From: Ferruginibacter sp.
Lineage (GTDB): Bacteria; Bacteroidota; Bacteroidia; Chitinophagales; Chitinophagaceae
Assembly: GCA_030655145.1 (NCBI GenBank)
Contig: JAURWD010000065.1
Coordinates: 1-50,012 of the forward strand
DNA length: 50,012 bases
Reading direction: 5' to 3'
Positions 16,753 to 45,898 of the stretch are shown here, one piece after another. Each line of letters opens with the position of its first letter. The first letter of the stretch is position 1. The notes beneath the pieces were generated by a model. That model saw only the letters and a program-made list of their open reading frames with translations. It made no database searches and was not told where the DNA came from. Made by a program: the position numbers and the translations under genes.

Positions 16753-16774
16753 ATCAGTGTTTTAAGCGTATAGA

Positions 16775-18674: not shown

Positions 18675-18704
18675 TTTTTACCGGCTCTTCTTCGCCGGTA
18701 AAAT
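18675..18704 (-). other. Intercistronic stem-loop between GH26 and the symporter
   Basis: A perfect 10-bp stem (TTTTACCGGC at 18676-18685 against GCCGGTAAAA at 18694-18703) with an 8-nt loop begins immediately after the GH26 stop codon at 18705-18707 on the minus strand. Downstream sequence is AT-rich (ATAGTTTTAAT) rather than a pure T-run. It may be a partial terminator or an mRNA processing and stability element that sets mannanase against transporter expression. Confidence 0.65.
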
Positions 18705-25561: not shown

Positions 25562-27013
25562 TTGCGAATAAAATATTCCTTCAGGGTTTCAACAGTTTGC
25601 GCTTTCACTCTGCTTGTGTTGTTGCTGTCGCATAAAATAAGTTTCAGCCAGGTTTCTGTCGCTTCAATTTTCACCGATAACATGGTCCTGCAACAGCAAT
25701 CCAGTGTACCGGTCTGGGGCTGGTCAACACCCGGCGCTCTTGTCAGGTGTACAAGTTCCTGGGATAAGAAGGAAATTACTGCCAGGGCGGGTAGTGACGG
25801 TAAATGGATCGCCTGGTTAAAAACTCCCGTAGCCGGTGGACCCTACGAGATCACGCTGGCAGACAAGGTAACGCTGAAATTATCAAATGTCCTGATCGGG
25901 GAAGTCTGGCTTTGCTCGGGCCAGTCTAATATGGAAATGCCCATGATGGGATTCAAAGGACAATCCGTGGAAGGATCAAATGAGGCGATCTTAAGATCGG
26001 CCAATGAGCAGGTGCGGGTGTACACTGTACCTCGGGCGCCTGTTACCACACCGCAGCCAAACAGTAAAAATGCTGCCTGGAAAATTGCCGGCCCGGAGAG
26101 TATCAGCAACTTCAGTGCAACGGCTTATTATTTCGCGAGGCTCCTGAATGAAATTCTTCATGTACCCGTTGGTGTTATCAACGCGAGTTATGGCGGCAGC
26201 GAAATCGAAAGCTGGATGCCTGCCACTGCTTTAGGATCTTTCCCTACGGTTAAAATACCATCTCCGGCTGACTCTATCAAAGTTCCAAACCGCACGCCTA
26301 CTGCTTTGTACAATGGAATGATTTATCCGTTGATCGGCTATGGCCTCAGGGGTTTTACCTGGTACCAGGGTGAATCAAATTACGATCGTCCCCAACAATA
26401 TGCAGCGCTCTTTGCAGCGATGATCAATAACTGGAGACGCAGCTGGAAGAAAGATGACCTCCCGTTTTATTTTGCACAAATAGCGCCATTCAATTATGCA
26501 CTGTATAGCCCCAAAGATTTGTCCCCGCATTTGAATTCCGCCTATCTCCGCGAGGCACAGGTTGCAGTTGCTGACCGGGTTGCTAATACCGGCATGGCCG
26601 TACTTCTTGACGCAGGCAACGAACAAAACATACATCCTGCCAATAAACAAGTTGCGGGTGAACGACTGGCCTTCCTTGCCCTTGCGAAGACATATGGCTT
26701 AAAGGGCCTTGGTGCAACAAGTCCGGCCTTTGATTCTTTAGTGATAAAAGATTCGGTGGCGATCGTGCAATTTAAAAATGCGCCCAATTGGCTGACATCC
26801 TTCGACCGGCCACTCTTGAATTTCGAGATCGCCGGGGCGGATAAGATCTTCTACCCTGCTACCGCGATCATTTATCGAACAACCGTCCACGTAACTTCGC
26901 CACAGGTAAAATCACCGGTTGCGGTGAGGTATGCTTTTAAAAATTTTGTCAACGCAAGCTTATTCGGTACCGATGCTTTGCCCGCCTCCTCTTTCAGAAC
27001 AGATAACTGGTAA
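25562..27013 (+). CDS. Sialate O-acetylesterase-family (SASA) carbohydrate esterase
   Basis: This 483-aa secreted SGNH-type esterase starts at a TTG at 25562; no in-frame ATG lies between the upstream TGA (25517) and the signal peptide, whose hydrophobic core is L-L-V-L-L-L-S. Features: N-terminal beta-sandwich (about 31-110), G-Q-S-N-M-E at 120-125 with the catalytic Ser122, W-Y-Q-G-E-S-N at 267-273, and the catalytic His358 in N-I-H-P-A-N-K-Q. Bacteroidota SASA enzymes often deacetylate pectin or other plant glycans rather than sialic acid. It is followed 3 nt later by the DUF5703-type gene, so the pair is co-expressed. Confidence 0.87.
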   Translation: MRIKYSFRVSTVCAFTLLVLLLSHKISFSQVSVASIFTDNMVLQQQSSVPVWGWSTPGALVRCTSSWDKKEITARAGSDGKWIAWLKTPVAGGPYEITLADKVTLKLSNVLIGEVWLCSGQSNMEMPMMGFKGQSVEGSNEAILRSANEQVRVYTVPRAPVTTPQPNSKNAAWKIAGPESISNFSATAYYFARLLNEILHVPVGVINASYGGSEIESWMPATALGSFPTVKIPSPADSIKVPNRTPTALYNGMIYPLIGYGLRGFTWYQGESNYDRPQQYAALFAAMINNWRRSWKKDDLPFYFAQIAPFNYALYSPKDLSPHLNSAYLREAQVAVADRVANTGMAVLLDAGNEQNIHPANKQVAGERLAFLALAKTYGLKGLGATSPAFDSLVIKDSVAIVQFKNAPNWLTSFDRPLLNFEIAGADKIFYPATAIIYRTTVHVTSPQVKSPVAVRYAFKNFVNASLFGTDALPASSFRTDNW

Positions 27014-27016
27014 CGC

Positions 27017-29476
27017 ATGGTTCAATTAAAACAACGGAAAATCAGCAAGATGGCAGGACAAACTCTTATCCAGTTGCCCGGCGTTGTGCAACCAGGTCGA
27101 CGGGTTGTTATTCTTGACAGGTATAGGAATATTTTCGTGGGCTTATCACCGTTAGTGCTGCAGAAAAGCTCGATGCTTTTATTATTTTTCGTATTGATAG
27201 GCTGTTTTGCAAAAGCGCAAACTTCAGCGATTGACGCCAACAACATTGTGTGGACGAAACAAAGTCAACATTCAGGTGAATCAATGCCCTGTGGCGGCGG
27301 TGACATTGGTTTAAATGTGTGGGTCGAAAACGATGAGCTTTTTTTTTACATTGCTCAAAGTGGAAACTTTGATGAAAACAATGCGCTCTTAAAAAACGGC
27401 CGGTGCCGCATCAAATTATTTCCCAATCCGTTCCAGGGCGGAAGGTTCCGGCAGGAACTTATTTTACAGAAAGGCCAGGTAGAAATTACAGCTGGCAATT
27501 CGCTCCTGTCAACAAAAATATTATTGTGGGTAGATGTGCACCAACCGGTTGTTCACCTTTCCATTAATAGCACAAAACCTGTAACGACAACGGCTACTTT
27601 TGAAAGCTGGCGCTACCAGGATCGTCCTTCGGCAGGGCGGGAAAACAATGCCAATTCATACAAATGGGCGCCGCCCACGCCGGTCGTTACATTTAAAGAT
27701 GAGATCGGGTTCCTCAAAGCAGGTGTGCTGTTTTACCATCGCAATAAAACTTCTCCTTCAATCTTTGATGTGACGGTAAAACAGCAGGGGCTGGAGGCGG
27801 TGAAAGATGAGTTGTTGAACCCCATCAAGGACCGCCAGTTTGGCGGATGGATGGAAGGCGAAGGAATGATCCCAGCGGGCACAACAACCGGGACATATAA
27901 AGACACGGATTTCAAAGGTTGGAAACTGCAGAATGCGCATCCGCGAAAATCGCAGGAGATCAATATTTATCTTTTGAATGCCCAGGTGCCTGCATCAGAT
28001 GATTGGCGCAGCGAATTAGTGGAAAAGATCTTAAAAACAAAAGGTAAAGAAAAACTGGCCAGTCGTACTACGATTGAATGGTGGCAACAATTCTGGCAAC
28101 GCAGCTTTGTATTTATGGGCGATGCTGTTAAGCAGGATACTGCGTGGGAGGTAGGCAGGAACTACCAGCTTTTCCGTTACATGCTTGCCTGCAATACATT
28201 TGGGAAATACCCAACAAAATTCAACGGCGGGTTATTTACCTATGATCCGGCATTCGTAGATTCTACCTACAAGTTTACACCCGACTTTAGAAACTGGGGC
28301 GGTGGCATCCATACGGCGCAAAACCAGCGCCTGGTTTATTTTCCACTTATCCGTTCCGGTGACTTCGACGTACTTAAACCACAGCTTGATTTTTATCTTC
28401 ATCTCCTTAAAACCGCGGAGCTGCGCAGCAAGGTATACTGGAACCACGCCGGCGCTTCATTCACTGAACAGCTTGAAAATTTTGGTCTGCCCAACTATGC
28501 GGAATATGGAACAAAGAGGCCCGCCAATTATGACAAGGGAATGGAATATAATCCCTGGCTGGAATATGAATGGGATACCGTGCTTGAGTTTTGTTTGATG
28601 ATGCTGGAGACGGAAAGATATGCCGGTCAAAATATCCAGGTTTATCTTCCCTTCATTGAAAGTTGCTTGGAATTTTTTGATGAGCATTACCAGCAGCTTG
28701 CCAAAGCGCGTGGAGCGAAAACCTTTGATGCTTCCGGGCACCTCGTGTTGTACCCGGGATCCGCGGCGGAAACTTACAAGATGGCTTACAATGCATCGAG
28801 CACGGTGAGTGGGTTGAAAACCATTCTTACCCGGTTGCTGCAATTGCCTGCGCAATACGAAACTCAACAGCCACGTGCGCACTGGGATTCGATGCTGCGG
28901 CGCATACCGCCGATCTCCTACGCCAGTTTCGAAGGCCATACCACCATCGCACCCGCGAAGTTGTGGGAACGCATCAATAACACAGAAACGCCGCAGCTTT
29001 ACCCACTTTATCCCTGGGGCATTTTCGGCATCGGCAGGCCCGGGCTTGACACTGCGCTTAATACTTACCGTTATGACACAAACGCGATAAAATTCCGGAG
29101 TCATGCTGGCTGGAAACAAGACAACATTTTTGCCGCCCGGCTCGGCCTGCGGGAAGAAGCCGCAGCGCTCACGGTAAAAAAATTACAGAATTCTGGTCGT
29201 CGCTTTCCCGCTTTCTGGGGACCGGGGTTCGATTGGACGCCTGACCACAATTGGGGAGGTAGCGGCATGATCGGGCTACAAGAGATGTTGCTGCAAACAG
29301 ATGGCGAAAAAATTTACATGTTGCCCGCCTGGCCAGCAAGGTGGGATGTGCATTTTAAATTGCATGCTCCATACAATACCACCGTTGAATGCGTACTAAA
29401 AAATGGAAAAGTAATACAGCTAAAAGTTACTCCTGCATCGCGGATGAAAGACCTGGTGAATATGTTGCCTCAATGA
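27017..29476 (+). CDS. DUF5703-type putative glycoside hydrolase, GH95-like fold
   Basis: This protein has an N-terminal beta-sandwich (about 70-330) with W-T-K-Q-S, S-G-E-S-M-P-C-G-G-G-D-I-G-L-N and D-E-L-F-F-Y, the hallmark of DUF5703 proteins, then a predicted alpha/alpha toroid (about 360-740) with R-N-Y-Q-L-F-R-Y-M, F-N-G-G-L-F-T and N-W-G-G-G, and a C-terminal beta domain. The architecture recalls the GH95/GH65 clan. The frame from the ATG at 27017 gives 819 aa, but the signal peptide (L-L-L-F-F-V-L-I-G-C-F-A-K-A-Q) begins near residue 53, so the true start may be the GTG at 27155 or the ATG at 27173. The substrate is unknown; pairing with SASA suggests a decorated plant glycan. Confidence 0.78.
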   Translation: MVQLKQRKISKMAGQTLIQLPGVVQPGRRVVILDRYRNIFVGLSPLVLQKSSMLLLFFVLIGCFAKAQTSAIDANNIVWTKQSQHSGESMPCGGGDIGLNVWVENDELFFYIAQSGNFDENNALLKNGRCRIKLFPNPFQGGRFRQELILQKGQVEITAGNSLLSTKILLWVDVHQPVVHLSINSTKPVTTTATFESWRYQDRPSAGRENNANSYKWAPPTPVVTFKDEIGFLKAGVLFYHRNKTSPSIFDVTVKQQGLEAVKDELLNPIKDRQFGGWMEGEGMIPAGTTTGTYKDTDFKGWKLQNAHPRKSQEINIYLLNAQVPASDDWRSELVEKILKTKGKEKLASRTTIEWWQQFWQRSFVFMGDAVKQDTAWEVGRNYQLFRYMLACNTFGKYPTKFNGGLFTYDPAFVDSTYKFTPDFRNWGGGIHTAQNQRLVYFPLIRSGDFDVLKPQLDFYLHLLKTAELRSKVYWNHAGASFTEQLENFGLPNYAEYGTKRPANYDKGMEYNPWLEYEWDTVLEFCLMMLETERYAGQNIQVYLPFIESCLEFFDEHYQQLAKARGAKTFDASGHLVLYPGSAAETYKMAYNASSTVSGLKTILTRLLQLPAQYETQQPRAHWDSMLRRIPPISYASFEGHTTIAPAKLWERINNTETPQLYPLYPWGIFGIGRPGLDTALNTYRYDTNAIKFRSHAGWKQDNIFAARLGLREEAAALTVKKLQNSGRRFPAFWGPGFDWTPDHNWGGSGMIGLQEMLLQTDGEKIYMLPAWPARWDVHFKLHAPYNTTVECVLKNGKVIQLKVTPASRMKDLVNMLPQ

Positions 29477-29513: not shown

Positions 29514-32500
29514 TTATTCGTGGGTTGTTTCCACCACAACGGGACCTAGAAGTCCAGCTTTCAGCAAAGAACCGCTGTTCAGCCGGTACGGCGAATTTGT
29601 CTGCGTCACTCTTTTCTCCGCGGGTAATTGTTGATCACCTACGATGCGGTTCGCCCAGGTATTTGTCACTTCGATACGAAGCTCATTCATCCCGGGGCGC
29701 AGGGCTTTGTCAATGTCCACACGAAATGGGGCTGTCCATACGATGCCACAATTGATACCATTCACAAACACTTCTGCAATATTGGCAACCTCGCCAAGCT
29801 CCAGCCAGCTTGAACTTCCCGCTTCTAAATATCCTTTCATTTCAAACTGGTTTGAATATGTCGCGGTGCCGGAAAAATATTTTACTAACGGTTCCGGGTG
29901 CCTGCTCCAGTCCTGCAAACTATCAAAGACAATTGGGTTCGGATATCCATGCATGGCAGTATCGAATTGAACTGCCCAGGGAGTGTTGATGTACTGTGTG
30001 ATTGAAGAGGTTTTCTTATGAATGGGTTCACTCAAAGTTTTGCCGTTTGTTGGTTGTTGAAAAACGACGAACATAGAACCATTGGCAGGCAATGAAAGCT
30101 GGCAGGTGGTGCGTCCTGCTTCGATCTTCCACGATGGTGCGGTACGAATTTGCCCGGTAACCGCATCCCATAGTTCCGGCACCCTACCCGCGACTCTTAG
30201 CGAAAGATCAACCACGCGGAATGAATCCAATTGGTTAGCAATAAAATAAATGTCAATACCCGGCGCAGCACGATGCGTCCAGTCAAGCCCGGTTGATTTT
30301 TTATTGCCTGCATCCATCGCCATAACATCTCGCGTGATGCCTAACCCATCAAAGTTCGCAGCCGCATAGGGGCCACGGAGGACCACTCCTGCGCCGGCTT
30401 TATTGCCAGGAGAGATTTGTTTGATCGTAGTGCCGTCATTCCCTTTTGCCCGATCCCAAAGCCTCGTTGCAAGCGCCTGCATGGCTTTATCCTGCGCAGG
30501 ACTACTGTTCATACCCGGCTTGTAAGTAGGTTTTTCTTCCAGGATCAGCGTGGCTCCCTGTTCAACAAAGGCATTTAGCTTCATCAGTACTTCGCCGGAC
30601 AAATAGTTAGCACCGGGATTCATTTTGCTTTTACCGGGCACCACCAGGAGTTGGTAACCATTACTCCCGCCAACGATTAGCCGCTTATTTTTAATGGACG
30701 TCAAACGCAGCATCGCATCCTTGTTGTACGAATCATACGCATATCCATCGAGGGGATCAACCCAGTTACCAGCTTCGGTGATGTTGGCAGAATGATTTAC
30801 GCCGGGCGGCGACTGCTTCATGGGCTCACCCACATTTAATAATCTTTGGGCTTCTTGCTGCACCCGTTCTTCTCCAAAAATACCAGGCAAAGTTTTAACT
30901 AAGCGATCCGGTAAAATGGAGCGTCGCGGAAAATCTTCACCGGTAAAGACAGCGATGTCGGTGACAGGCACGCCTACCTGCAGAAGTGCCTGGCAACGCC
31001 GGGCATAATCTACCCAGGCCCTTCCCTGTTTCCACCACGTTTGATCACGCTGGAAGTACAGTCCAATTCCATCCAGTGTCATCCCAGGTTTGCGATCCAT
31101 CCAGGGATTGTGCATAAACACATGATAGGAAAGCCGGTTAATGCCAAGCGCATAATTACGATCCTGTAGGGTTTTTAACATGCCGGGATGTTCATCCCAT
31201 AACATCCTGAGTTCAGTGAAAGCCTCTGCCTGTATAATATTCTTTCCATAGATATGCGCAGCGGAAATGGCGTCGAGCATATCGTTTGGTTTGTCGTGGG
31301 TTGGACTGCGTAACCAAAATTCACCCATCGGTACATCTGCATGCTGGTAATGCAGCATGCCGTCACTGACCATGGTTGGTGCTACACTTTCTGCTGTAAA
31401 ACTGCAGCCTTTGTTATGCGCCAGGTCGCGAAGTGTTTTATAAAAATTATCATTTATCAATTCACTGATGGTGGCTTTTACGTCCTGTAAAAAAGTTTCG
31501 GACACCTGTGCGTTTTCTATTGGTATACCCGCAATTGCCGGGAGATAATTAAATAAGTCGTAGCCACGGCGACGCCTAAACGCTTCGCGGAAAACCGGCG
31601 ACCAGTTTTGACTGCCACACTCCCAACTGTCGAGGTGAAAGGTGGTTAGCACCGAATCTGTCACCTTGGGGGGAATGCTGTCGAAAACAGCTCCGAACCA
31701 TTTCGCAAATTGAAGCCTGGTCGCAACCGGGTTGAATTTATCACACTCCAGCCCTTTACCACCCCCGCCGGTCGCATTCCGGTGACCCGTGCTGGTATGT
31801 CCCATCCGCAGGATGGTCCAGTTTCCTGGCGGTGCTTTCCATTGAAGTCTGCCATTGGCATCCAGCCTGGAACTGAGGTTTATGATTTTGTTGAGTGGGA
31901 TAAAATCTTTCGGCGAAGCAGGTGCGTTGGCTTTATTTTCACTGATCCTCCACACTTCGCCGTTTTTTCCTTCGAAGTGGTCAATGCGGGCTTCGGAGGA
32001 GAGTTCGATACCAGCTACCCTCAAGGTCGGTTTCCACTTGGCAGCATCCAGGTCTTCGGCGCCGGGTTCAGAATTTGTTTTATCAAAAATAAACCTGAAG
32101 TATTTTGCGGTAACCGCCGGGATCGCATGCGTGTAGGCAGCATCCCAGTCCTGCCAGCCATGCCTCGGTGGCTCCAGGCGGGTGTGAGGCGTGAAGTTTA
32201 TTCCATCGTTACTAACGGCGACCTGTAGGCGATTTGAATGGTAATTATTTACGCTGTGGATCACAATGGTGCGACAGGTAAATGGCCGCTCGAATTCATA
32301 CTGGATCCAGCAATTGTCATTTGAGGCGAAGTTCTTTTTGTTACCCGGCACTGTTAAGAGTTGCAGGGCGGAATCCAGTTTGTTGGAACTGATTCGAGGT
32401 TGTATAGTTTTTGTTGAGCTACCCGAACCCGCAGGAGACGGATAGGCAAACACCGCGACATCCTTGTAATAATTTTCGTTCGTCGGCGGCTGGGCAAGGG

Positions 32501-33011
32501 TGTCATTAAAATTCATTCCTCCCTTGATTTGAGTGGAAGACCAAACCATTTTCTGCATGGATAATTCCGGCGTGATCCAGGGCCCGCCGCCGAGGGCAAA
32601 GCCGTCGCTGAAATGGATCCCAATTTGCAGGTGAAGGCGTTTTGCCTCTGTCAATGCAAACCGCACCATTTTCCACCAGAGGGGTGAGAGTTGTTCCACA
32701 GGCGGTTCCATCAACGGCGGATTAGCAACCCCCTTAATAAACATGAGGTAAGCTCCTCCGATCCCAACCTGCTTCATGGCTTCCAGGTCGGCCGTAATGC
32801 CTGCCTGGCTTACGCTTGCCTGGTTCCAATACCAAAAAACCCAGGGACTTGCAGCTGGTGGAGGCGATTGAAAAAGTTGCTCAAGTGAAGCCTGTTTCCC
32901 CGCCTGTGGTAATTGGGCCTGGCTGGTAAAGACTGACAGCGACGCAAGAAGTAACCAGCAATACCGGGCGGCAAAAAAAAAGCTTACGATATGCTGGCAA
33001 AATTTGTTCAT
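29514..33011 (-). CDS. GH106 alpha-L-rhamnosidase
   Basis: This 1165-aa secreted protein has a signal peptide ending near S-Q-A-Q (30-33) and a GH106 TIM barrel beginning P-W-V-F-W-Y-W-N. Acidic motifs of the type used in catalysis are Glu464 in H-L-D-S-W-E-C (459-465) and Glu596/Glu600 in I-I-Q-A-E-A-F-T-E. An F5/8-type beta-sandwich is inserted at about 225-340, and a galactose-binding-like domain lies at about 1040-1150 (V-F-V-N-G-I-N-C-G). Characterised GH106 enzymes release L-rhamnose from rhamnogalacturonan II or I. It is the last gene of the minus-strand operon, 50 nt after the FucP permease, and converges with the DUF5703 gene. Confidence 0.9.
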   Translation of the reverse strand: MNKFCQHIVSFFFAARYCWLLLASLSVFTSQAQLPQAGKQASLEQLFQSPPPAASPWVFWYWNQASVSQAGITADLEAMKQVGIGGAYLMFIKGVANPPLMEPPVEQLSPLWWKMVRFALTEAKRLHLQIGIHFSDGFALGGGPWITPELSMQKMVWSSTQIKGGMNFNDTLAQPPTNENYYKDVAVFAYPSPAGSGSSTKTIQPRISSNKLDSALQLLTVPGNKKNFASNDNCWIQYEFERPFTCRTIVIHSVNNYHSNRLQVAVSNDGINFTPHTRLEPPRHGWQDWDAAYTHAIPAVTAKYFRFIFDKTNSEPGAEDLDAAKWKPTLRVAGIELSSEARIDHFEGKNGEVWRISENKANAPASPKDFIPLNKIINLSSRLDANGRLQWKAPPGNWTILRMGHTSTGHRNATGGGGKGLECDKFNPVATRLQFAKWFGAVFDSIPPKVTDSVLTTFHLDSWECGSQNWSPVFREAFRRRRGYDLFNYLPAIAGIPIENAQVSETFLQDVKATISELINDNFYKTLRDLAHNKGCSFTAESVAPTMVSDGMLHYQHADVPMGEFWLRSPTHDKPNDMLDAISAAHIYGKNIIQAEAFTELRMLWDEHPGMLKTLQDRNYALGINRLSYHVFMHNPWMDRKPGMTLDGIGLYFQRDQTWWKQGRAWVDYARRCQALLQVGVPVTDIAVFTGEDFPRRSILPDRLVKTLPGIFGEERVQQEAQRLLNVGEPMKQSPPGVNHSANITEAGNWVDPLDGYAYDSYNKDAMLRLTSIKNKRLIVGGSNGYQLLVVPGKSKMNPGANYLSGEVLMKLNAFVEQGATLILEEKPTYKPGMNSSPAQDKAMQALATRLWDRAKGNDGTTIKQISPGNKAGAGVVLRGPYAAANFDGLGITRDVMAMDAGNKKSTGLDWTHRAAPGIDIYFIANQLDSFRVVDLSLRVAGRVPELWDAVTGQIRTAPSWKIEAGRTTCQLSLPANGSMFVVFQQPTNGKTLSEPIHKKTSSITQYINTPWAVQFDTAMHGYPNPIVFDSLQDWSRHPEPLVKYFSGTATYSNQFEMKGYLEAGSSSWLELGEVANIAEVFVNGINCGIVWTAPFRVDIDKALRPGMNELRIEVTNTWANRIVGDQQLPAEKRVTQTNSPYRLNSGSLLKAGLLGPVVVETTHE

Positions 33012-33061: not shown

Positions 33062-34360
33062 TTAGCGCAATTTAGCCGGCTTGTACCCCGTAAGAGCAAA
33101 CAAGACAATGACGATGAAACACGCTAACGGTACTGAATACCCGATCTGGATATCATCGCCGTTCAGGTCAATGATGGTGCCCATCAAATACGGGAAAATT
33201 GCGCCGCCAACAATGGACATCACGAGTAAGGAGGCGCCGATCTTCGTTTCTTCCCCGAGGTTGGTAAGACCAAGGGAAAAGATCGTTGGAAACATGATCG
33301 ACATAAAAAACCCAAGCGCTCCCAGGGAATAAATGACCGAAGCGCCCTGGCTCCAAATGGCAAGAATACACAGCAAAGAAGCAATTCCCGCATAGATCAG
33401 CAATAACCTGTGCGAGGCGATGTATTTTAAAAAGAAGGTGCCAATAAACCTTCCGGCCATAAACAACAATCCGTAGACCACGAGATAATAACCGGCAGTT
33501 TTTTCATCAATGCCCCCACCCTGCTTCGCCATACGTATAAAAAAGCTCGTTACACAAACCTGGGCGCCTACATATGCGAACTGTGCAAGCACCGCCCAGC
33601 TTAAATGCCGGTGCCGAAAGGCTTTGATAAAAGCCATCGGTTTCGCAATGCGGGTCTCATCCTTTACTTCAGGGAACTTGAAAAAACAAAACAGGATCGC
33701 GACCGACAACAATACCACACCAAGAATGATATAAGGAAGTTTAACGGCATTGGCTTCATTGGCCAGGTAGCCTTCTTTCACGTCAAGCGGCATGGCGGCA
33801 AGCGCTTCGCTCGAATGCTCAACGCCGGATAAAATAAATGCCGTTCCCACCAATGGGGCGATGACGGCCGCCAGACCATTAAACGAAGCCGCAAGATTTA
33901 AACGAATTCCTGCGGAAGCAGGTGGACCAAGTATGGCGGCATACGGGTTAGCCGCTGTTTCCAGGATCGCCAATCCGCACCCGATGATAAAGAGCGCCAG
34001 CAGGAACAATTCGTAACTGCGTGTATTCGCTGCCGGTACAAATAAAAAACAACCGACTGCGAATAATAAAAGGCCGGTAATGATCCCGGATTTGTAGCCC
34101 CATTTCTTCAGCAACATCCCGGCTGGAATCGCCATTAGGAAATAAGCGAAGAACACGGAGGTATCGACGAGTGTAGATTGCCTGTTGTTTAGGTCACAGG
34201 CTTTTTTCAAATGTGGGATGAGGATGGAATCAAGGTTGTGCGCCATTCCCCATAAAAAGAAGAGGCTGGTGACGAGGATAAAGGGCACCAGCAATGTTTT
34301 TGTCGGAGCCTTGATTTGTTCGGTATCGGCCTGTTTTAAAGGGATGGTTTGAAGCGCCAT
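33062..34360 (-). CDS. fucP: MFS sugar permease, FucP family
   Basis: This 432-aa, 12-TM transporter has the FucP-family opening (L-F-F-L-W-G-M-A-H-N-L-D, residues about 33-44), the conserved E-T-A-A-N-P-Y central motif, and A-A-S-F-N-G-L-A. FucP-type proton symporters take up L-fucose, and relatives take up other deoxy- or hexoses. Next to alpha-L-rhamnosidases the cargo may be L-rhamnose or L-fucose. It lies 14 nt after the MaoC gene. Confidence 0.9.
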   Translation of the reverse strand: MALQTIPLKQADTEQIKAPTKTLLVPFILVTSLFFLWGMAHNLDSILIPHLKKACDLNNRQSTLVDTSVFFAYFLMAIPAGMLLKKWGYKSGIITGLLLFAVGCFLFVPAANTRSYELFLLALFIIGCGLAILETAANPYAAILGPPASAGIRLNLAASFNGLAAVIAPLVGTAFILSGVEHSSEALAAMPLDVKEGYLANEANAVKLPYIILGVVLLSVAILFCFFKFPEVKDETRIAKPMAFIKAFRHRHLSWAVLAQFAYVGAQVCVTSFFIRMAKQGGGIDEKTAGYYLVVYGLLFMAGRFIGTFFLKYIASHRLLLIYAGIASLLCILAIWSQGASVIYSLGALGFFMSIMFPTIFSLGLTNLGEETKIGASLLVMSIVGGAIFPYLMGTIIDLNGDDIQIGYSVPLACFIVIVLFALTGYKPAKLR

Positions 34361-34374: not shown

Positions 34375-34824
34375 TTATTGGTCTGCACCGGTTTTAACTA
34401 ATAAAAGATGATCGCAAACGAGCACGAGTTCGCCATGCTGGTTAATGATCTCGACGTGTTCTGTAACGGTTCCGTAACCGGGCGTCTTGCTTTCGCCTTT
34501 GTGCGAAATGGTGATCTCGGAATGAATGGTGTCACCAATAAAAACCGGTTTTATAAAGCGAAGGCGGTCATACCCACGCGACATCGCCTCTGGATTTATT
34601 TCCGACGCGGTGAGGCCGATACCGATACTAAATACCATGGTGCCGTGGGCTATCCGCTGTTTGAAAGGCTGTGTTTTACACCATTCCGCGTCCATGTGAT
34701 GCGGGAAAAAATCCCCGGTGTGCCCCGCATGTACGACAAAATCTGTTTCCGTAATGGTACGGCCAAGCGTTACCCGTTTGCTCTCCGGGATATAGTCGTT
34801 AAAAAAAATAGACCTGATATACAT
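34375..34824 (-). CDS. MaoC-family acyl-CoA hydratase/dehydratase (hotdog fold)
   Basis: This 149-aa hotdog protein has the hydratase motif in G-D-F-F-P-H-H-M-D (Asp38, His43) followed by A-H-G at 59-61. MaoC enzymes add water to enoyl-CoA thioesters or remove it; the mesaconyl-CoA and itaconyl-CoA hydratases are in this family. Its presence beside two CoA-transferases points to a real CoA-thioester pathway rather than a stray gene. Substrate unknown. It lies 99 nt after the dehydrogenase gene, with an imperfect inverted repeat in the gap. Confidence 0.88.
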
Positions 34825-34877
34825 ACAATGTTTTTGATCCGGTATTTGCGATGATTGAGTGCTGTTAAATATGTTCT

Positions 34878-34906
34878 ATTCCCGTTACGGTTAGCATAAC
34901 AGGAAT
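34878..34906. promoter_or_regulatory. Imperfect inverted repeat upstream of the MaoC gene
   Basis: ATTCCCGTTA (34878-34887) faces TAACAGGAAT (34897-34906), nine of ten positions complementary, with a 9-nt spacer. No T-run follows, so it looks more like an operator or a structured leader than a terminator. Low certainty. Confidence 0.35.
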
Positions 34907-34923
34907 GAATAAACGATGTAATC

Positions 34924-35994
34924 TTACAGTTGTTCCTGGATGCGAATGCCGCCCGCATCGCTTGACTGGTATGCGGCTTCAACCACTGCCATGGTGCGAA
35001 TCACATCTTCAACATTTGTGGGTAGCGTTGCCTCACCTCCCTCTTTGAAACGCATCAGGCTGGCCATCGTGCCAATAAATGCATCCGGGAACCAGGAGCC
35101 TTCCAACGGAATTGTCTCCCATACCGGGTTCGATCCCGGTTTATGTAAACAATACTCAAAGCTATCGGGCAAACCGCCGGGATAGTTCATCAATAAACCC
35201 ATCTTTGCCTTGATGGCCCCTTTCGTTCCCTCCCACTTGATAAAACTTTCCTGGTGTTGCGAACCAAAATCATGATCATGGTTCGTGTTGATCACCGCGT
35301 GCATGGCTGCGCCATAATCTAAAATGATCGTTGTCCTGGTAGAAGAAAGATCCTTGGCAGGATGCCGCAGGGTCTTGGCCATCACCGAACCAGGTTCTCC
35401 CAAAAAGGAGCGCACGAGATCAATGTAATGAATGCTGTGGTATTGGATCTCGAGCCGCGGATGCACCATCACGTGCGGAAATAATTGCCAGGGCGTATTG
35501 ACCGTCACCCTCACTTCCATGTCATACAAGTCACCGATCAACCCCTGCCCGATCATCCACCTGGCGGCACTAACGTATGGGGCAAAACGCAGTTGACAAT
35601 TGATGGCAGCCACCAGCTTTTTTTTACGACAAGTTTCGAGAATATCTTTTGATTGCTGAAAATGATCACCCATTGGTTTCTGTATTAAAACCGCACTGCC
35701 ATCCGGCAACTGGCTGAGCGATTCAATAAATTGCTCAGGCATAATCGTAAGGTCGTACACAGCATTTGGAGGCGCCTGCCTCACCGCTTCAGCTACCGAA
35801 TCGTACACCAGTGGGATGTCAAATTCCGCTGCTAATTTTTCCGCCTTTGATCTTGTCCTGTTCGTGATGCCCGCCACATCAAATCCTGCCTTACGATAAG
35901 CAGGCAAATGGGCATCTTTTACAATACCACTTGCCCCGATGATGATGATAGGCTGTGAGGTTTTCGGTAAAAGTGGTTTGTACTTGATATCCAT
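34924..35994 (-). CDS. Gfo/Idh/MocA-family oxidoreductase
   Basis: This 356-aa cytoplasmic NAD(P)-dependent dehydrogenase has a Rossmann domain opening with I-I-I-I-G-A-S-G (16-23) in place of the usual G-x-G-x-x-G. The usual E-K-P is Q-K-P here (Gln105, Lys106, Pro107), keeping the lysine. The substrate-domain motif H-S-I-H-Y-I-D-L gives His189 and Asp192. Family members oxidise sugars or inositols, or open lactones in the reverse direction. Its stop-start junction with the amidohydrolase shares one base (35994), so the two are translated together and may work in one step pair: sugar to lactone to acid. Confidence 0.85.
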   Translation of the reverse strand: MDIKYKPLLPKTSQPIIIIGASGIVKDAHLPAYRKAGFDVAGITNRTRSKAEKLAAEFDIPLVYDSVAEAVRQAPPNAVYDLTIMPEQFIESLSQLPDGSAVLIQKPMGDHFQQSKDILETCRKKKLVAAINCQLRFAPYVSAARWMIGQGLIGDLYDMEVRVTVNTPWQLFPHVMVHPRLEIQYHSIHYIDLVRSFLGEPGSVMAKTLRHPAKDLSSTRTTIILDYGAAMHAVINTNHDHDFGSQHQESFIKWEGTKGAIKAKMGLLMNYPGGLPDSFEYCLHKPGSNPVWETIPLEGSWFPDAFIGTMASLMRFKEGGEATLPTNVEDVIRTMAVVEAAYQSSDAGGIRIQEQL

Positions 35995-36848
35995 TAAATC
36001 TTATAAAATTGTTCTGCGTTCCTGTAATAAATGTTTTCTTGTTCCGCGGTACCCACGAGCGCTTCGATCACCTTCGCATACGCCTGCCAGGTATGTTGAA
36101 AACTCCCTGCGAGCAAGGCCACTGGCCAGTTACCACCGAGGAATGCCCGGTCGGTGCCAAAATGTTCAAGTGCAAAAGCGACATAGGGTTTAATTTCATC
36201 CGCGGTCCATTTGTCTTCTTTCTGGCTCGTGTTTCCAAGCCCGGAAATTTTGATAAAAAAGTTTGGATTCTGCGCCGCTGCCTTCATCAGTTCTCCCCAG
36301 GTTCCAAACTTTTCACCGCTGTTGATCGGCGGCTGGTTCAGGTGATTGAGTACCATTTTCAGGTGCGGTACTTTTTCACCCAACTGTATGGCAACCTCGA
36401 GATGCTGCGGTAGTACTCCAACCACATCAAATGGAATATCCGCGTCGGCGAGCAGGCGCAGGCTTTCGATGACTGGTTCCTGCAGCAGCCATTTTGGATC
36501 TGGCTCGTCATGGATTAGGTGGCGAACACCTTTAAAAAATGGATGACTCGCATAAGTTTCCTGCAAAGCAACAGCCGCTTGAGTGGGATCCAATAACGGT
36601 ACCCACCCCACGACGCCAGCTACCCAGTCATTACGGGCCGCCACATCCAACATATAATCCGTGTCTTCAAAACTGTTAGCCGCCTGCACCAGTATAGCGT
36701 CAGTTATCCCCGCTGCAATTCTTTCCTTATCATATTCTTCCGGTAAAAAATCACGGTACAACCGAACATTATCTTCTTTCAGCCAGCTATATTTTGCGCG
36801 GGCAAAACTCCAGCAATGTACATGGGTGTCGATTATTTTATCCAGCAT
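35994..36848 (-). CDS. COG3618 amidohydrolase, sugar-lactonase type
   Basis: This 284-aa TIM-barrel protein has the metal-site H-x-H at His9-His11 (D-T-H-V-H-C-W), V-L-V-Q-A (53-56), V-V-G-W-V (79-83), G-V-R-H (107-110), D-V-V-G-V-L (141-146), L-N-H-L (His169) and K-I-S-G-L (200-204), the pattern of L-fuconolactonase-like amidohydrolases. The last barrel-strand motif, normally G-S-D-W-P-V, is G-G-N-W-P-V with Asn240. The reaction expected from family and context is hydrolysis of a sugar lactone made by the Gfo/Idh partner. The actual substrate is unknown. Confidence 0.85.
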   Translation of the reverse strand: MLDKIIDTHVHCWSFARAKYSWLKEDNVRLYRDFLPEEYDKERIAAGITDAILVQAANSFEDTDYMLDVAARNDWVAGVVGWVPLLDPTQAAVALQETYASHPFFKGVRHLIHDEPDPKWLLQEPVIESLRLLADADIPFDVVGVLPQHLEVAIQLGEKVPHLKMVLNHLNQPPINSGEKFGTWGELMKAAAQNPNFFIKISGLGNTSQKEDKWTADEIKPYVAFALEHFGTDRAFLGGNWPVALLAGSFQHTWQAYAKVIEALVGTAEQENIYYRNAEQFYKI

Positions 36849-36910
36849 GCAGGCCTAAAATGAAATTGATTTCTAAAAATGTTGTACCCGAAATAGCAGC
36901 ACCCTCTTTA

Positions 36911-38056
36911 TTAAACTAATGAAAACTGCTTCGCTATCTCGGCATTGTGTTCCCCCAATAAGGGTGCGCCTTTTTGCGAAGTTAAGATTTGACCATCAAC
37001 CCGTATGGGACAACGTGTTGTTAAAATGTGCAGCCCGTTGCTCGTGTTCACTTCCTGTTCCATTTGCAATACTTTGTATCCCTCCGCGGCCACCAACTCC
37101 TCATAATTCAACACGTTGGAACACCAGATATCAGCTGGTTCCAGCAACGAAAGCCAGTATGCTGTAGATCGGGTAAGCAGGTGCGCTGCGAGAATGGTTT
37201 TGATCTCATCGCGGTGAGTAAACCAATCGGCACTATCCGCATAAATCCCGACACCGGCGCAGCCAAGAATCTCTCCGAGCACAATGATGTTACCCATGGC
37301 CAGGGCCAGGTTTCCATCGCTGGTTTTGTAAATCCCATACGGGGCCGAGATGTAGGCATGCCCGTTATTCACGGCGCTGCGTATTGGTAACTGGTTGCTG
37401 TCATTCAAAAAACAAGTGAGTACTTCAAATTGAAAATCAAGTGCACTTTCAAACATGCTGACTTCAACTAACGAACCTCTTTCTTGCACAGTTCTCTGGA
37501 ACAAGGCTGCGAGAATTCCCTGGCTAAGGTGCACGCCGGCGAGGATATCAACAACCGCTACGCCCATCGCCGTAGGCATACTTCCGTTATCGTTTGTCAG
37601 CCAGGTCATACCCGAAGCCGCCTGCAATAACAGGTCCTGACCGGGCAGATCTTTCCACGGACCCTCTTTTCCATATCCACTGATGGCCGCGTAAACGATG
37701 GCGGGATTGAGGGATTTTACAACTTCGTATCCCAGGCCAAGGCGCTCCATTACTCCCGGCCGAAAATTATGAATCAGCACATCTGCCTGTGCCAATAATT
37801 TTTTAATTCGCTCCAGGTCTTCCCCCAATTTAAGGTCGGCCATGTAGCTTTGCTTGTTGCGGTTGATCGCATGAAAAATGGTGGACTCGCCCTGGATCAT
37901 CACATCGGAAACATAGAGTTCACGACAAATGTCTCCCACATACGGTTTCTCAATTTTTATCACCTGGGCCCCAAGATCTGCCAGGCGTAACCCTGCCGAC
38001 GGCCCGGAGAGAAACTGGCTGAAATCTACAACAACAACGTCTTCGAGTAATTTCAT
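36911..38056 (-). CDS. Class III (CaiB/BaiF) CoA-transferase, paralogue 1
   Basis: This 381-aa CoA-transferase has [10 protein letters not shown] near the start, H-N-F-R-P-G (96-101), S-G-Y-G-K-E-G-P-W (126-134) and the catalytic Asp141 in P-G-Q-D-L-L-L-Q. Family members move CoA between carboxylic acids (for example formyl-, carnitine-, benzylsuccinate- and malate-CoA-transferases). Its start overlaps the stop of paralogue 2 by 4 nt (ATGA). Both copies keep Asp and the same flanking motifs, suggesting a heteromer or two sequential steps. The substrate is unknown. Confidence 0.9.
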
Positions 38057-39210
38057 GCGGGTTGGGTTAAAGTAAGTCCTACTAAAATTTGTTCATTGTT
38101 TGCGCCAAGTGCTGGAGCTGGTTTTGGTGAAAACAGGCGCTCACCATTGAAGCGGATCGGGCACCGGGTGGTGATGATTTTTTTTCCGCGGCTGGTCGTG
38201 ATGGTCTGTTCCATTTCCAGTACTTTATACGCCGGGTGATCCTTGATCTTATTCCAATTGAAAACCTCCATGGCCCAGATATGGCCCTCTTGTAATTTCC
38301 CGATCCAATCTGCCGATGAGGCGCCTACCATATGTTTTGACAGAATATTTTTGATCGCATCCCTGCAACTAAATGTATCGGCCTGGCAATAATCTTTTAA
38401 AGCCTCACAGTTCAAGGCCCTTCCAAGTCGTTCAATATCTACCATCGCGATCGCAATGAATCCATCTGCTGTGGCGTAAATTCCATAGGGAGCGCTGAGC
38501 AAGGGATGCGCATTATTTTCGGCGGAGCGTTTTGGCAACTCCCTGCTCGTGTAATAGGTTGTTAACAATTCAAACTGGAAGTCGAGCAGCGACTCAAGCA
38601 AGCTGAGTTCGATGAGTGCGCCAACCCCTTTTTTCTGGCGACGGATCAACGCGGCGAGTATCCCCTGTACGAGATGGCTTCCACAAATGATGTCAGCGAT
38701 CGCGATGCCGAAAGGAATGGGATTATCATTTTCGTTGCCGCTCGTATAGACAAGACCGGATAAAGACTGGAGCAAGAGATCCTGGCCAGGCCGATCTTTC
38801 CATGGGCCTTCTTTGCCATATCCCGAGATGGTTGCATAGATGATCTTCTTGTTGATGGCACTAACGGACGCATAATCCAATCCAACTTTTTCCATCACGC
38901 CCGGGCGAAAATTATGCGTGACCACGTCTGCGCTATCTATGAGTTTTTTGACCAGTAGCAGATCACCCGGATCTTTGAGGTCAGCAGCGAAACTTTCTTT
39001 ATTTCGGTTGATAGTATGAAAGAGCAGGCTGCTGCCATCATCGGCCCATAAATTTTTTATCGCCAACTGGCGACAAGCATCTCCTGCACCCGGTCGTTCA
39101 ATTTTTATGACCCGGGCTCCAAGATCCGCGAGGCGCAGGCCTGCCGAAGGGCCGGATAAGTATTGGCTGAATTCCAACACGGTCAAACCTTGTAATGGTA
39201 AGTGGTTCAT
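38053..39210 (-). CDS. Class III (CaiB/BaiF) CoA-transferase, paralogue 2
   Basis: This 385-aa CoA-transferase is clearly paralogous to its neighbour: it shares [33 protein letters not shown] and the catalytic Asp144 in P-G-Q-D-L-L-L-Q. It overlaps the solute-binding-fold gene upstream (stop and start share 4 nt) and overlaps paralogue 1 downstream in the same way, so all three are translationally coupled. Adjacent paralogous class III pairs are known to form heteromers (benzylsuccinate BbsEF, malate SmtAB), the nearest precedent. Confidence 0.9.
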
Positions 39211-40424
39211 AATACACGATTACTTTCCTTGTTAACACAATCTTTGTAAAGGAGGTTGATCCCCTTGATCACACTTGAAGGATACCCGCCGTTCATGAGG
39301 AAATCGCGGATGGGATGCCCGGCCCGGTCCTGGAAATGCAGGTAACCATTGTACCGGGGCCGCACATACGCTTTTTCGATCGCGGGTAAAGTATTTTTAA
39401 AAAAATCATTGCAAAGTTGGTTGACTTCTTTACTCACCCAGGCGCTGCGATGTCCCGGCTGGCCTCCATGTTGCACATAGAAAGTGGATTGGCAACTTGA
39501 AGATGTTATGGCCGCTGCAAACTCCAGGGCTTCTTTAGGATGCTTACTGAATGCGGAAACGGCGATACCTGTGCCGCCGAGCGTACTTCGTAAAGGCGCA
39601 TCATTTACGCTGATCATATCGGTGTATTGAAGCAGGTTTTTGGCGTACCCGTTTCGGGAATAATTAGAATAACAATATGCAAAGGGGCAATACCAGTAGT
39701 CATCTCCGGCACTCATGAGTTCCGCAACAGCGATGGGGTTAAGCTCAAACATTTTTGGATCCACGCGCCGGTATAATTCCTGCATCATCAATAATGCGGC
39801 GGTGCCGGTGCTTACATCAATCACTTCATCTTTATTTTGGAATGGCTCCTTTCCATTCGCGATGCAGAACATAAAGAAGTTCATGAGCAGATCGATCGGG
39901 ATGCCTGGTACTGCGACCTTTCCCTTGTCTGCCAACGCAAGCAGTTCTTCCCAATTAAGGGGACGGAACAGTTGTGCTTTTTTGAAGAGGTCGGGGCGAA
40001 AGCTGGCCACCGGGGTCGCCGCGTCTATTGCCAGCGCCCATTGGTGACCGTTATACTCGTAACTCAGGTGTGACTGACCTACCGTGTTTTTCAATTGATC
40101 TGCCAGGAATTCCGGGCTGAGGTATTCGTCAAGTGGCAGCACACATTTAGTGGCCGCGGCACAGCCAACCCAGGGATGATCGATGATGAGCAGGTCATAA
40201 TCATGGGTAAGATCCTCTAAGGGCTGATCGGCAAACTCCTGCAGGCTGCGTTTTGTCCAGGTAATTTCTATTGCGGGGTGCAGTTCATTAAAACGTTGTG
40301 CAAAAGCCAGCAACGGTGTTAGCCCGCGGCTATGTCCCCAGGTGATACCTTTTAATTTAATTCTTTGTTTTTTAGTGCCCAATGAAAGCGTCGATACTTC
40401 CGGCGATATGGTTGCGTTGTTCAT
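39207..40424 (-). CDS. Solute-binding-fold protein without a signal peptide
   Basis: This 405-aa protein matches the type 2 periplasmic-binding fold (bacterial extracellular solute-binding protein family 1): an early strand [13 protein letters not shown], the helix [18 protein letters not shown] at 75-82, and a hinge-like [10 protein letters not shown]. The N-terminus ([14 protein letters not shown]) is polar, so it appears to stay in the cytoplasm. No ABC permease or ATPase lies nearby. It is coupled by a 4-nt overlap to a CoA-transferase and is 8 nt after GH2. Possible roles are ligand sensor, substrate chaperone or enzyme subunit, all inference. Confidence 0.82.
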
Positions 40425-40432: not shown

Positions 40433-43795
<3,363 letters not shown>

Positions 43796-43821: not shown

Positions 43822-45837
43822 CTAGTTTCTCGCCACCGGCAACCAAACCGACATATCGCCTTGACCCCGGTTCGACCAGGCATAATAGGGAATCAATCGG
43901 ATGTTTACAGGTGTCGATGTTGTTTGGAGCGGCCGAAATAATTGGTTGCTCCATTGGTCGTTTGGCAACAGCCTCGCTTCGCCTTCCAGCATTGTAACGG
44001 TTGCATCGTTGATCTTTGTTGATACGGGTTTGAACCGGATACCAGCTGGCAATAACACACGGGAAATATTTGCCGCAGGCAGATCAGCCGATTCGAGGCA
44101 ATACACGATTGGGCCACGTTTTACGGCAACCTGGTTCCGTGTTTCCTCCACCAGTGGATTTGATTCCAACAGGCTAACGGGCATGTCTAACTGCAGTTCT
44201 ATTTGGTCTCCGCTTTGCCATACTGCGGAGGTCAGGAGGTAACCCTGTTTTACAAGCGTATCCTTTACCAGTTTCCCGTTTACTTTTAAACTATAGTTGG
44301 TACACCAATCTGGAATGCGCAGGTGAACCAGCAAAGGTTTGGCCGGTGCTTTGTTGATCCTTATGTTGATCTGTCCATTCCAGGGATAGGATGTTTGCTG
44401 TTCCAGCGAAACAGGAGAACCATCTTTCAACGTGGTCGAGAGGTTATTGCCACCATACATGTTGACGTAGAGCCCTGCCTCGCCAATGCTGTACATATAG
44501 TTGCTTACCTGGGCAATGGTACGAATGATATTGGGCGGGCAACAATTGCTGCGGCTGATATAGGTGGAGCGTCCGCCATTCCACCGCAGGTCGTAAGGGT
44601 AATCCCTGGATGCAGCCAATGGGTTCGTGTAGAAAAAAGAATTGCCGTCGAGACTGATGCCACTTAAAACACTGTTGTACAAACACAGCTCCATTTTGTC
44701 AGCATACTTCGCATCGCCTGTTAATTGGAGCATGCGCCAGTTCCAGAGCACGTTGCCGATATTGGCGCAGGTTTCATTGTGTGCTGTTTTATTGGGCAGC
44801 TGGTAGGCCTTACCGTAAGCCTGTTGAATTTTTTCAATTGAATCGGGTTTGTAAGAGATGCCTTCCTGGGACAGGCCATCGTACAGCGCGCCACATCCAC
44901 CGGTTACGTACATTTTTTCATTGATCACATTGTCCCAGAGCACATTCAAGGTGGACAGCAAGGTCGGGTCACCTGTTTCTGAGAAAACATCGGCCACACC
45001 TGCAAACAAATAGTTTGCTCTTACAGCATGACCGTTTACTTCCTTCATTTCGCGAAAAGGCAGGCGGTCAGAGTTGTCATCAGAGCCTTGCGACTGCCCG
45101 CGGATATCGATCAGTTTTTTTACCAGTTCCAGGTATTTTTTTTCACCGGTTGTACGGTACATTTCCGTGATGCCCATGTAATGAGAAGGACAGATCGCAT
45201 TGCGGGCCTGCTCGGGAGAAGCTGACTGGTAAAAGGAAACCAGGAAATCAGTGGCCTTCGTAGCGACCTTCAGCAAACTCGTCTTACCGGTTACACGGTA
45301 ATGAATACACGCCGCTGTCATCAGGTGGCCGAAATTATACGCCTCGAAACTTAGCTTGTCGTCAAACATCTCCGTCTTGCCGGATTTCCGCTGCTCGATG
45401 ATTGATTTCGTATAGATGTATCCATCGGGTTTTTGTGCCGCTGCGATCACCGCGATGGCGGTGTCCATCATCCTGTCCAACTTCGGATCTTTCGTGATCG
45501 CGTATAAACTGGCAACCGCTTCTAAAGTTTTGTAGAAATCCCCATCATGAAACGAAGGACCGCGAAATCTTCCCGTGTCCAAACCGGCCGCCACCCGGAA
45601 ATTCTGGAAAGCAAAACACCTTTCTTTGCTCGTATAAGTATTCCAGAGATGCGGCACCATCGAGTCGCGGCAAACCTTGAAACGTTCGGCCCAGAAACCG
45701 TTTGTCCATTGAACATCCTGCATCCCCACCCCAGCCAGGCGGGCGTACCGGCTGTTTGATGTATGTACGAGGCTTGTCTGTGCAGTGATTGAAACACACA
45801 ACACCCAGCAAATACAGGTATAAAAAATTGATCTCAT
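43822..45837 (-). CDS. GH127 beta-L-arabinofuranosidase
   Basis: A frame opens upstream at 45942, but it would overlap the GH78 stop and lacks a signal peptide there. I chose the ATG at 45837 (671 aa), which begins a signal peptide (M-R-S-I-F-Y-T-C-I-C-W). The GH127 metal-site residues are clear in this numbering: Glu355 and Cys357 in H-N-E-T-C-A, and Cys432-Cys433 in S-N-C-C-P-P-N. These match the Glu and three Cys of HypBA1, which uses Cys as nucleophile. It should release beta-L-arabinofuranose from pectic arabinan, hydroxyproline-linked arabinan or RG-II side chains. Confidence 0.92.
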   Translation of the reverse strand: MRSIFYTCICWVLCVSITAQTSLVHTSNSRYARLAGVGMQDVQWTNGFWAERFKVCRDSMVPHLWNTYTSKERCFAFQNFRVAAGLDTGRFRGPSFHDGDFYKTLEAVASLYAITKDPKLDRMMDTAIAVIAAAQKPDGYIYTKSIIEQRKSGKTEMFDDKLSFEAYNFGHLMTAACIHYRVTGKTSLLKVATKATDFLVSFYQSASPEQARNAICPSHYMGITEMYRTTGEKKYLELVKKLIDIRGQSQGSDDNSDRLPFREMKEVNGHAVRANYLFAGVADVFSETGDPTLLSTLNVLWDNVINEKMYVTGGCGALYDGLSQEGISYKPDSIEKIQQAYGKAYQLPNKTAHNETCANIGNVLWNWRMLQLTGDAKYADKMELCLYNSVLSGISLDGNSFFYTNPLAASRDYPYDLRWNGGRSTYISRSNCCPPNIIRTIAQVSNYMYSIGEAGLYVNMYGGNNLSTTLKDGSPVSLEQQTSYPWNGQINIRINKAPAKPLLVHLRIPDWCTNYSLKVNGKLVKDTLVKQGYLLTSAVWQSGDQIELQLDMPVSLLESNPLVEETRNQVAVKRGPIVYCLESADLPAANISRVLLPAGIRFKPVSTKINDATVTMLEGEARLLPNDQWSNQLFRPLQTTSTPVNIRLIPYYAWSNRGQGDMSVWLPVARN

Positions 45838-45898
45838 TCCATCTAATAGTTTACCCAACTGGGGTTGATAAAAAATACTTCCCGGTAAAATGATTTCT

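Follow-up and report, generated by a model that had tools for sequence, protein, structure and literature searches.

Does the run of six genes at positions 34375-40424 of a Ferruginibacter sp. contig (JAURWD010000065.1) encode a pathway of its own, and which sugar would such a pathway consume? The window, i.e. the stretch of DNA analysed at its full length of 50,012 nucleotides (nt), is the entire contig and ends at 50012. The six open reading frames (ORFs) form one uninterrupted run on the minus strand: a protein of solute-binding protein (SBP) fold, here termed SBPc, two class III coenzyme A (CoA) transferases (CaiB1 and CaiB2), a COG3618-type amidohydrolase, a Gfo/Idh/MocA dehydrogenase and a MaoC-type hydratase. 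A first-pass annotation from the sequence had read them as an undescribed CoA-thioester and lactone cassette between a glycoside hydrolase (GH) of family GH2 and a FucP permease; families, gene order and the gaps of 62 and 99 nt were as it described. We consider it highly probable that the cassette is a real, co-inherited pathway which in the window serves a sugar of rhamnogalacturonan II (RG-II). The substrate is probably fuco-configured; its identification as 2-O-methyl-L-fucose (MeFuc), freed by a GH139 enzyme encoded nearby, is tentative.

Co-inheritance was examined across the class (295 genomes). Seven of them contained SBPc, seven MaoC and seven CaiB, and these were the identical seven, with two copies of CaiB in each; Gfo/Idh was present in the same seven and in one more, G031. 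In all six other carriers of SBPc, the genes for SBPc, two CaiB, Gfo/Idh and MaoC were near neighbours, with an amidohydrolase beside them in two and a second SBP-like gene in four. A scan of species genomes gave at least 543 SBPc relatives, the best 80 of which were used as loci. The locus stretches reach at most 10 kb to either side, so gene counts are lower bounds and short ORFs may be missed. CaiB was present in 71 of the 80 loci, in 69 of them as two copies, and was absent from the stretch in nine (L021-L024, L026, L029, L035, L052 and L090). The 71 CaiB loci contained Gfo/Idh in 63 cases, MaoC in 55 and a FucP- or RhaT-like transporter of at least 38% identity in 59 (62 by best label). 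An amidohydrolase was seen in 39 and a second SBP-fold gene in 24, never both; eight had neither in the stretch. The CaiB-SBPc pair recurs in Bacteroidota, Alphaproteobacteria, Variovorax, Microbulbifer (L077) and L069, a single record assigned by its label to Bryobacteraceae, and one scan of viral contigs returned no SBPc relative. This demonstrated that the cassette is not a chance string and that its genes are strongly linked. The first-pass annotation had allowed for the six genes being rarely linked elsewhere. The opposite was found, and its conserved CoA-transferase/MaoC cassette among glycosidases stood up. Of its six-gene set the linkage of the CaiB pair, MaoC, Gfo/Idh and SBPc held; the amidohydrolase was not invariant.

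Several variants of the locus were seen. The second SBP-fold protein, SBP2 (L015 10885-12123; L097 13460-14695), is likewise signal-less and MalE3-like, and its AlphaFold2 model has a predicted local distance difference test score (pLDDT) of 93.3. In Microbulbifer (L077 9995-15904) and Tenacibaculum (L080 9995-15749) an aldehyde dehydrogenase follows SBPc and two CaiB in place of Gfo/Idh and MaoC, and L080 has a crotonase in addition (families by eye and by homologues). In L021, L022, L023, L024 and L026 an SBPc of 64-65% identity adjoins an SSF symporter and is preceded by an enolase-family gene (cluster C6), with no CaiB in the stretch. A Variovorax megaplasmid (L108 3481-12126) carries a row of sugar ATP-binding cassette (ABC) transporter, CoA-transferase, SBPc, enoyl-CoA hydratase and FAH genes, which suggests that the module is general.

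The individual proteins were then inspected; the Pfam matches of all six exceed their gathering cut-offs. SBPc starts with 21 residues without a hydrophobic run ahead of the first strand of its model, i.e. by inspection it has no signal peptide, in agreement with the first-pass annotation. The GITW motif of this strand is preceded by at most 12 residues in 71 of the 80 relatives and by 13-25 in four; the remaining five have more residues or no motif. The AlphaFold2 model (pLDDT 93.7) confirmed the SBP fold, and the best Foldseek match was MalE3, SmoF type (TM score about 0.8). No ABC permease or ATPase was detected among the 29 window proteins scanned. SBPc has the fold of an ABC solute-binding protein, but by inspection no signal peptide and, among these 29, no partner permease or ATPase.

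The alignment column of the CaiB active-site Asp, which we take to be the catalytic residue, was occupied in 144 of 144 sequences (Asp170 in CaiB2); by fold family and this Asp, CaiB1 and CaiB2 are class III CoA-transferases. The order of the paralogues is kept, the first genes being nearer to CaiB1 in 67 of 69 and the second nearer to CaiB2 in 69 of 69 loci. Neither protein could be placed in a known class III subfamily (mesaconate, succinate-glutarate, formyl or oxalate): the best scores were 196.8 and 231.3 bits versus an NCBIfam cut-off of 750. For both, the best NCBIfam match was a dicarboxylate transferase, far under the cut-off; mesaconate-type models were weak and below cut-off, and citramalate or malate models were not among the NCBIfam matches. 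The pattern D..P.H...HG, presumably the MaoC/R-hydratase active-site signature, was present in 58 of 63 MaoC proteins; the remaining five also show it, AHG being preceded by M or L. The window MaoC is 81-85% identical to that of five class carriers and 64% to that of G203. At the limit used, PDB relatives of the amidohydrolase were 4dlf, 4dlm, 4dnm and 4do7 only, with a best score of 78.1 bits (4dlf group); we take these structures to be L-fucono-lactonase. Pfam identified no sugar-acid dehydratase of the enolase or UxaA type among the six.

What does the neighbourhood indicate about the sugar? By sequence comparison the setting is that of an RG-II locus, not of a generic rhamnoside operon, because an equivalog-level aceric acid hydrolase (GH127) and a GH139-type 2-O-methyl-fucosidase are among the neighbours. 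The rhamnoside-degradation operon of the first-pass annotation was therefore right as to a glycosidase setting and too general as to its target: GH127, GH139, GH141, GH106 and GH78 are all nearest to RG-II structures. Its guess of an unusual pectic sugar was supported; for its alternative, an acyl decoration as the substrate, nothing was found that would indicate it, although no test aimed at it was made. RG-II contains sugars that occur almost nowhere else. Furthermore, a member of cluster C0 is present in the flanks of 20 of the 80 loci; one exceeds the NCBIfam cut-off for alpha-D-galacturonidase, presumably with a GH138/RG-II role.

According to PMC12282258, MeFuc is nearly confined to RG-II among plant wall glycans, GH139 is the one family known for its release, and GH29 and GH95 are reported as active on L-fucose, not on MeFuc. 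The two GH139 structures of that report, 9hyq and 9hmb, are relatives of the window protein. Offset mapping from the W-x7-QN motif placed counterparts of W403, Q411, N412, W490 and E561, whereas no position could be assigned for W162, N639, E641, W683 and D723. Thus the catalytic acid, the base and two of three tryptophans were matched, and the third tryptophan was not placed. Since, in the same paper, just over 40% of GH139 sequences have the full triad and other specificities are hinted at (PMC12282258), release of MeFuc by the window protein is likely, not certain.

The GH139 domain PF18961 was strong in ten of the 295 class genomes, i.e. in six of the seven cassette carriers and four of the 288 others (Fisher 1.7e-9); G278 was marginal. 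In addition, 49 SBPc-bearing genomes chosen from the 80 loci were searched; 47 of them show CaiB in the stretch. The set comprised 44 records not titled metagenome-assembled genome (MAG) or uncultured, three MAGs (L019, L025 and L042) and three uncultured records (L076, L078 and L080), minus L043; 30 loci were left out. PF18961 was strong in 38 of the 49 and 37 of these 38 show CaiB in the stretch. In Botryobacter (L071) and Rufibacter (L101, L131) GH139 is the sole glycosidase between SusD and the cassette, and the gene for aceric acid hydrolase lies either about 60 kb away or on a different contig. The cassette of Filimonas (L045) is 5 kb from GH139 and 47 kb from GH127.

Orthologues in Alphaproteobacteria and in G031 lie in operons of the oxidative L-fucose type. 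Labrenzia and Sinorhizobium medicae combine CaiB-SBPc, amidohydrolase, IclR, sugar ABC transporter, (rhamnose) mutarotase, Gfo/Idh, MaoC, SDR, an annotated L-fuconate dehydratase and FAH; in S. medicae CaiB-SBPc is about 10 kb from the rest. MaoC proteins 63-68% identical to that of the window occur in the three alphaproteobacterial loci of Shinella, Thalassospira and Ponticoccus. In G031 the Gfo/Idh gene (55% identity) shares a run with SDR, FAH, a lactonase-type gene and a 61% relative of the Labrenzia/S. medicae L-fuconate dehydratase; searches of this genome for SBPc, MaoC and CaiB returned nothing. With the limit that was set, NCBIfam attached no name to the homologues of fuconate dehydratase. 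Orthologues of SBPc, CaiB and MaoC are also on pSymB of Sinorhizobium meliloti 1021. Going by its SMc prefix, SMc02774 is presumably chromosomal, and a fucose-type locus on pSymB would then be the second in S. meliloti. According to PMC3454389, SMc02774 is an L-fucose-binding protein beside a putative L-fucose dehydrogenase. All seven class carriers have an L-fucose-type FAH/SDR pair, away from the cassette in six, beside it in G065 and in both positions in G203; in the window genome the SDR/FAH set is on another contig of 7.2 kb. FAH adjoins the cassette in eight named Flavobacterium loci and in L014, whose stretches contain no UxaA-type dehydratase; this fits with dehydration being a task of the cassette itself. 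No enolase-type match was present in the stretches of the eight, and a dehydratase may lie elsewhere in these genomes; in L010, FAH occurs along with an enolase-type gene.

With the families, the conserved Asp, the MaoC pattern and the SBP fold in hand, we infer every enzymatic step of the following route. FucP would import MeFuc, Gfo/Idh would oxidize it at C1 to a lactone, and the amidohydrolase would open the lactone to 2-O-methyl-L-fuconate. The CaiB pair would load this sugar acid onto CoA. Activation by CoA renders the C2 proton more acidic, and therefore MaoC could eliminate the 3-OH to yield 2-methoxy-2-enoyl-CoA. The latter would be an enol ether, which water could open with loss of methanol to give 2-keto-3-deoxy-fuconate, either as the CoA ester or as the free acid after CoA has been handed on. 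Pyruvate and lactate would finally be made by the SDR and FAH that the cell has in its L-fucose-type pathway. As a guess, SBPc may be a partner of CaiB or hold the substrate, translationally coupled to CaiB; the SBPc and CaiB1 genes overlap by 4 nt. Methylation at O2 should block the isomerase and an ordinary fuconate dehydratase, and this would explain a separate CoA route.

A number of observations weigh against this assignment. The two CoA-transferases and the SBP-fold protein are not explained by MeFuc. The best NCBIfam match of the amidohydrolase, L-fucono-1,5-lactonase, scored 153.5 bits and did not reach the equivalog cut-off of 400, and the FAH matches in all seven carriers were under the model cut-off of 500. 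No lactonase is in the stretch of 32 of the 71 CaiB loci, a rhamnose-mutarotase-like gene is in just two of the 80, and MaoC is missing from 16 CaiB stretches, these being partial and prone to lose short ORFs. Strong GH139 is absent from 11 of the 49 searched genomes, and in G203, a cassette carrier, neither GH139 nor GH127 was found. The most serious rival is aceric acid, the branched sugar acid of RG-II: after C1 oxidation and lactone opening it would be a C6 dicarboxylate, which CaiB would activate and MaoC dehydrate. The GH127 beside the cassette is above the NCBIfam cut-off for aceric acid hydrolase, and the best CaiB match mentioned above is a dicarboxylate enzyme. Close homologues (at least 51% identity) were found in six of the seven class carriers and in 35 of the 49 searched genomes, with three more at 42-43%. 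At 52% identity or above, they are present in six of seven carriers and four of the 288 others, an association as strong as that of GH139 (41% relatives occur in two more non-carriers). We had tried the distance of GH139 versus GH127 as support for MeFuc; this failed and physical distance favors aceric acid. Both genes occur in 34 of the 49 genomes, 29 of which have at least one on the cassette contig: GH127 was nearer or alone in 20, GH139 in nine. In the six class carriers aceric acid hydrolase was nearer in four, GH139 in two. With these distances in class carriers added, our confidence in MeFuc was slightly lowered. Nevertheless aceric acid appears unlikely, in view of the L-fucose-type operons of the alphaproteobacterial and G031 orthologues, of the Rufibacter operon, in which GH139 was kept and GH127 was not, and of a quickly computed tree of Gfo/Idh and MaoC (63 rows). 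Bacteroidota fall into two clades in this tree, separate from the three alphaproteobacterial rows. Within each clade, one sub-clade stems from genomes in which no close aceric acid hydrolase was found; together these comprise eight loci with CaiB, Gfo/Idh and MaoC, to which G203 adds a ninth. Seven of the eight have GH29-, GH95- or divergent DUF5703-type genes, weakly so in L025; L078 is the exception. Among all 14 searched genomes lacking a close aceric acid hydrolase, eight have a GH29- or GH95-type gene in the locus (the assignment was checked by Pfam on three representatives; that of L025 is just a 31% relative).

As a further rival, the cassette might be an additional route for a fuco-configured sugar without the methyl group, such as plain L-fucose or L-galactose. 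In L064 and L065 the glycosidase that separates SusD from CaiB1 is GH95, the transporters of most CaiB loci are FucP- or RhaT-like, and the G031 Gfo/Idh is within an L-fucose-type run. Against this, the seven class carriers already possess the L-fucose-type FAH/SDR pair, mostly distant from the cassette, four of them have a fucose-isomerase-type domain over cut-off, and the cassette, present in few genomes, goes with RG-II markers; we rate this explanation as rather unlikely. Rarity also speaks against a CoA route for L-rhamnose, the use of which is common, as does the company of L-fuconate dehydratase kept by the orthologues. The GH106 and GH78 neighbours would suit it, as would RhaT-like as best label in 44 of the 80 loci and Fodinibius L090 (9046-18060), where SBPc, by eye, is next to a classical rhamnose operon with GH106- and GH29-type genes near. 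RhaA (PF06134) was found in none of the seven class carriers, a weak point in its favor as this was the only rhamnose isomerase family searched for. L-rhamnose was set aside as main substrate and is quite improbable. Lastly, 2-O-methyl-D-xylose, the other O2-methylated RG-II sugar, would pose an equal chemical block at O2 and share the RG-II association; deoxyhexose-type transporters and the fucose-type context render it, or a mixed function, very improbable. MeFuc thus continues to be our preferred, if tentative, substrate.

The cassette genes and their neighbours are listed in Table 1. We take 5mqo to be BT_1003, 5mqm (5mwk) BT_0986 and 3cih BT_1001. The five cassette junctions consist of overlaps of 4, 4 and 1 nt and the two gaps; the first-pass annotation had called four of the five very tight or overlapping, but the number that overlap is three. 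Upstream, GH2 is separated from SBPc by 8 nt; downstream, FucP follows MaoC after 14 nt. Given these short gaps, 29514-50001 reads as a single operon candidate.

Table 1. Features of the cassette and of its neighbourhood in the window.
Feature	Position	Strand	Support
SBPc, signal-less SBP-fold protein, 405 amino acids	39207-40424	-	Pfam SBP_bac_1 55.1 bits
CaiB1, class III CoA-transferase, first paralogue	38053-39210	-	Pfam CoA_transf_3 316 bits
CaiB2, class III CoA-transferase, second paralogue, 51% identity to CaiB1	36911-38056	-	Pfam CoA_transf_3 311.8 bits
COG3618-type amidohydrolase, probable sugar lactonase	35994-36848	-	Pfam Amidohydro_2; NCBIfam; PDB
Gfo/Idh/MocA dehydrogenase, probable sugar 1-dehydrogenase	34924-35994	-	Pfam GFO_IDH_MocA; 55% orthologue in G031
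MaoC-type hydratase/dehydratase	34375-34824	-	Pfam MaoC_dehydratas 77.1 bits; PDB 4ffu 200.8 bits
FucP-type sugar/H+ symporter	33062-34360	-	TIGR00885 377.1 bits (cut-off 280.4, passed); PRK10133 350.7 (cut-off 427, missed)
GH106	29514-33011	-	5mqm/5mwk closest solved relative, 1160.3 bits
GH2 LacZ-type glycosidase	40433-43768	-	Pfam, NCBIfam
GH127, predicted aceric acid hydrolase	43822-45942	-	NF049879 1125.3 bits (cut-off 950); 5mqo 818.3 bits
GH78-type alpha-rhamnosidase	45899-48067	-	Pfam; 3cih 929 bits
GH141, closest to Glycoside hydrolase BT_1002	48085-50001	-	5mqp 667.6 bits
GH139-type 2-O-methyl-alpha-L-fucosidase (DUF5703), putative	27017-29476	+	9hyq 874.8, 9hmb 295.5 bits
SASA-family esterase adjoining GH139	25562-27013	+	Pfam SASA

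At the other end of the window (1770-19826) is a second polysaccharide locus with GH5, two GH26, GH130, an AGE-type epimerase, SusC/SusD, a surface glycan-binding protein (SGBP) and CE2, by appearance for mannan utilisation. The SusC/SusD of the window (9074-13980) stand among these mannan-type genes; on the RG-II side the contig ends beside GH141.

If CoA activation of a sugar acid proves true, it would extend the known means of sugar-acid dehydration and might also allow a sugar O-methyl group to be removed without oxygen. The wider proposition is a new kind of sugar catabolism, in which class III CoA-transferases with a cytosolic SBP-fold partner activate sugar acids, MaoC or crotonase dehydrate them, and O2-methylated sugars are demethylated oxygen-free via an enol-ether thioester; this we regard as conceivable, though doubtful. 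The question can be tested directly, since the six genes are defined and isolates, S. meliloti 1021 (pSymB) among them, carry orthologues. The first-pass annotation could name no pathway that joins sugar oxidation and lactone opening to CoA activation and hydration, and searches of the open-licence PubMed Central (PMC) literature turned up no matching pathway either; nor did they yield a bacterial route for MeFuc or aceric acid, or one that takes fucose, rhamnose or aceric acid through CoA.

How does the cassette compare with known systems? The closest solved relatives of the window GH141, GH127, GH106, GH78 and GH139 belong to the RG-II system of B. theta (BT_1001-1003, BT0984, BT_0986; gene names other than BT_1002 are given partly as we presume them to be). 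The carbohydrate-active enzymes of the B. theta type are complete in G188 and partial in G073, and neither genome yielded SBPc, MaoC or CaiB; the pair of SASA esterase and GH139 (25562-29476) recurs in both. D-apiose catabolism, a pathway for an RG-II sugar (OiaK/OiaX models), differs in that it employs a kinase and a RuBisCO-like decarboxylase and no CoA; in G110 (L009 7083-9679) OiaX- and OiaK-like genes, below cut-off, are about 11 kb from the cassette, with homologues in Anditalea (L049). Removal of an O-methyl group from a polysaccharide-derived sugar is shared with 6-O-methyl-D-galactose demethylation by cytochrome P450, which according to PMC10033563 is oxidative and releases formaldehyde; unlike there, no P450 was detected among the 29 window proteins scanned. 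CoA-cycling dehydrations operate in the metabolism of carnitine (CaiB and a hydratase) and of phenyllactate. They share a class III CoA-transferase and a CoA-thioester hydratase with the cassette, the expected substrate of which is a sugar acid and which has two transferases and an SBP-fold neighbour. With the oxidative, non-phosphorylating L-fucose pathway the cassette has in common a sugar dehydrogenase, a COG3618-type lactonase and a deoxysugar transporter, and its orthologues sit in such runs; there, dehydration is by an enolase- or UxaA-type enzyme, in the place of which the cassette carries an SBP-fold protein, MaoC and CoA-transferases. Taken together, we see the cassette as a variation on oxidative deoxysugar catabolism that stands a fair chance of representing a new type of pathway.

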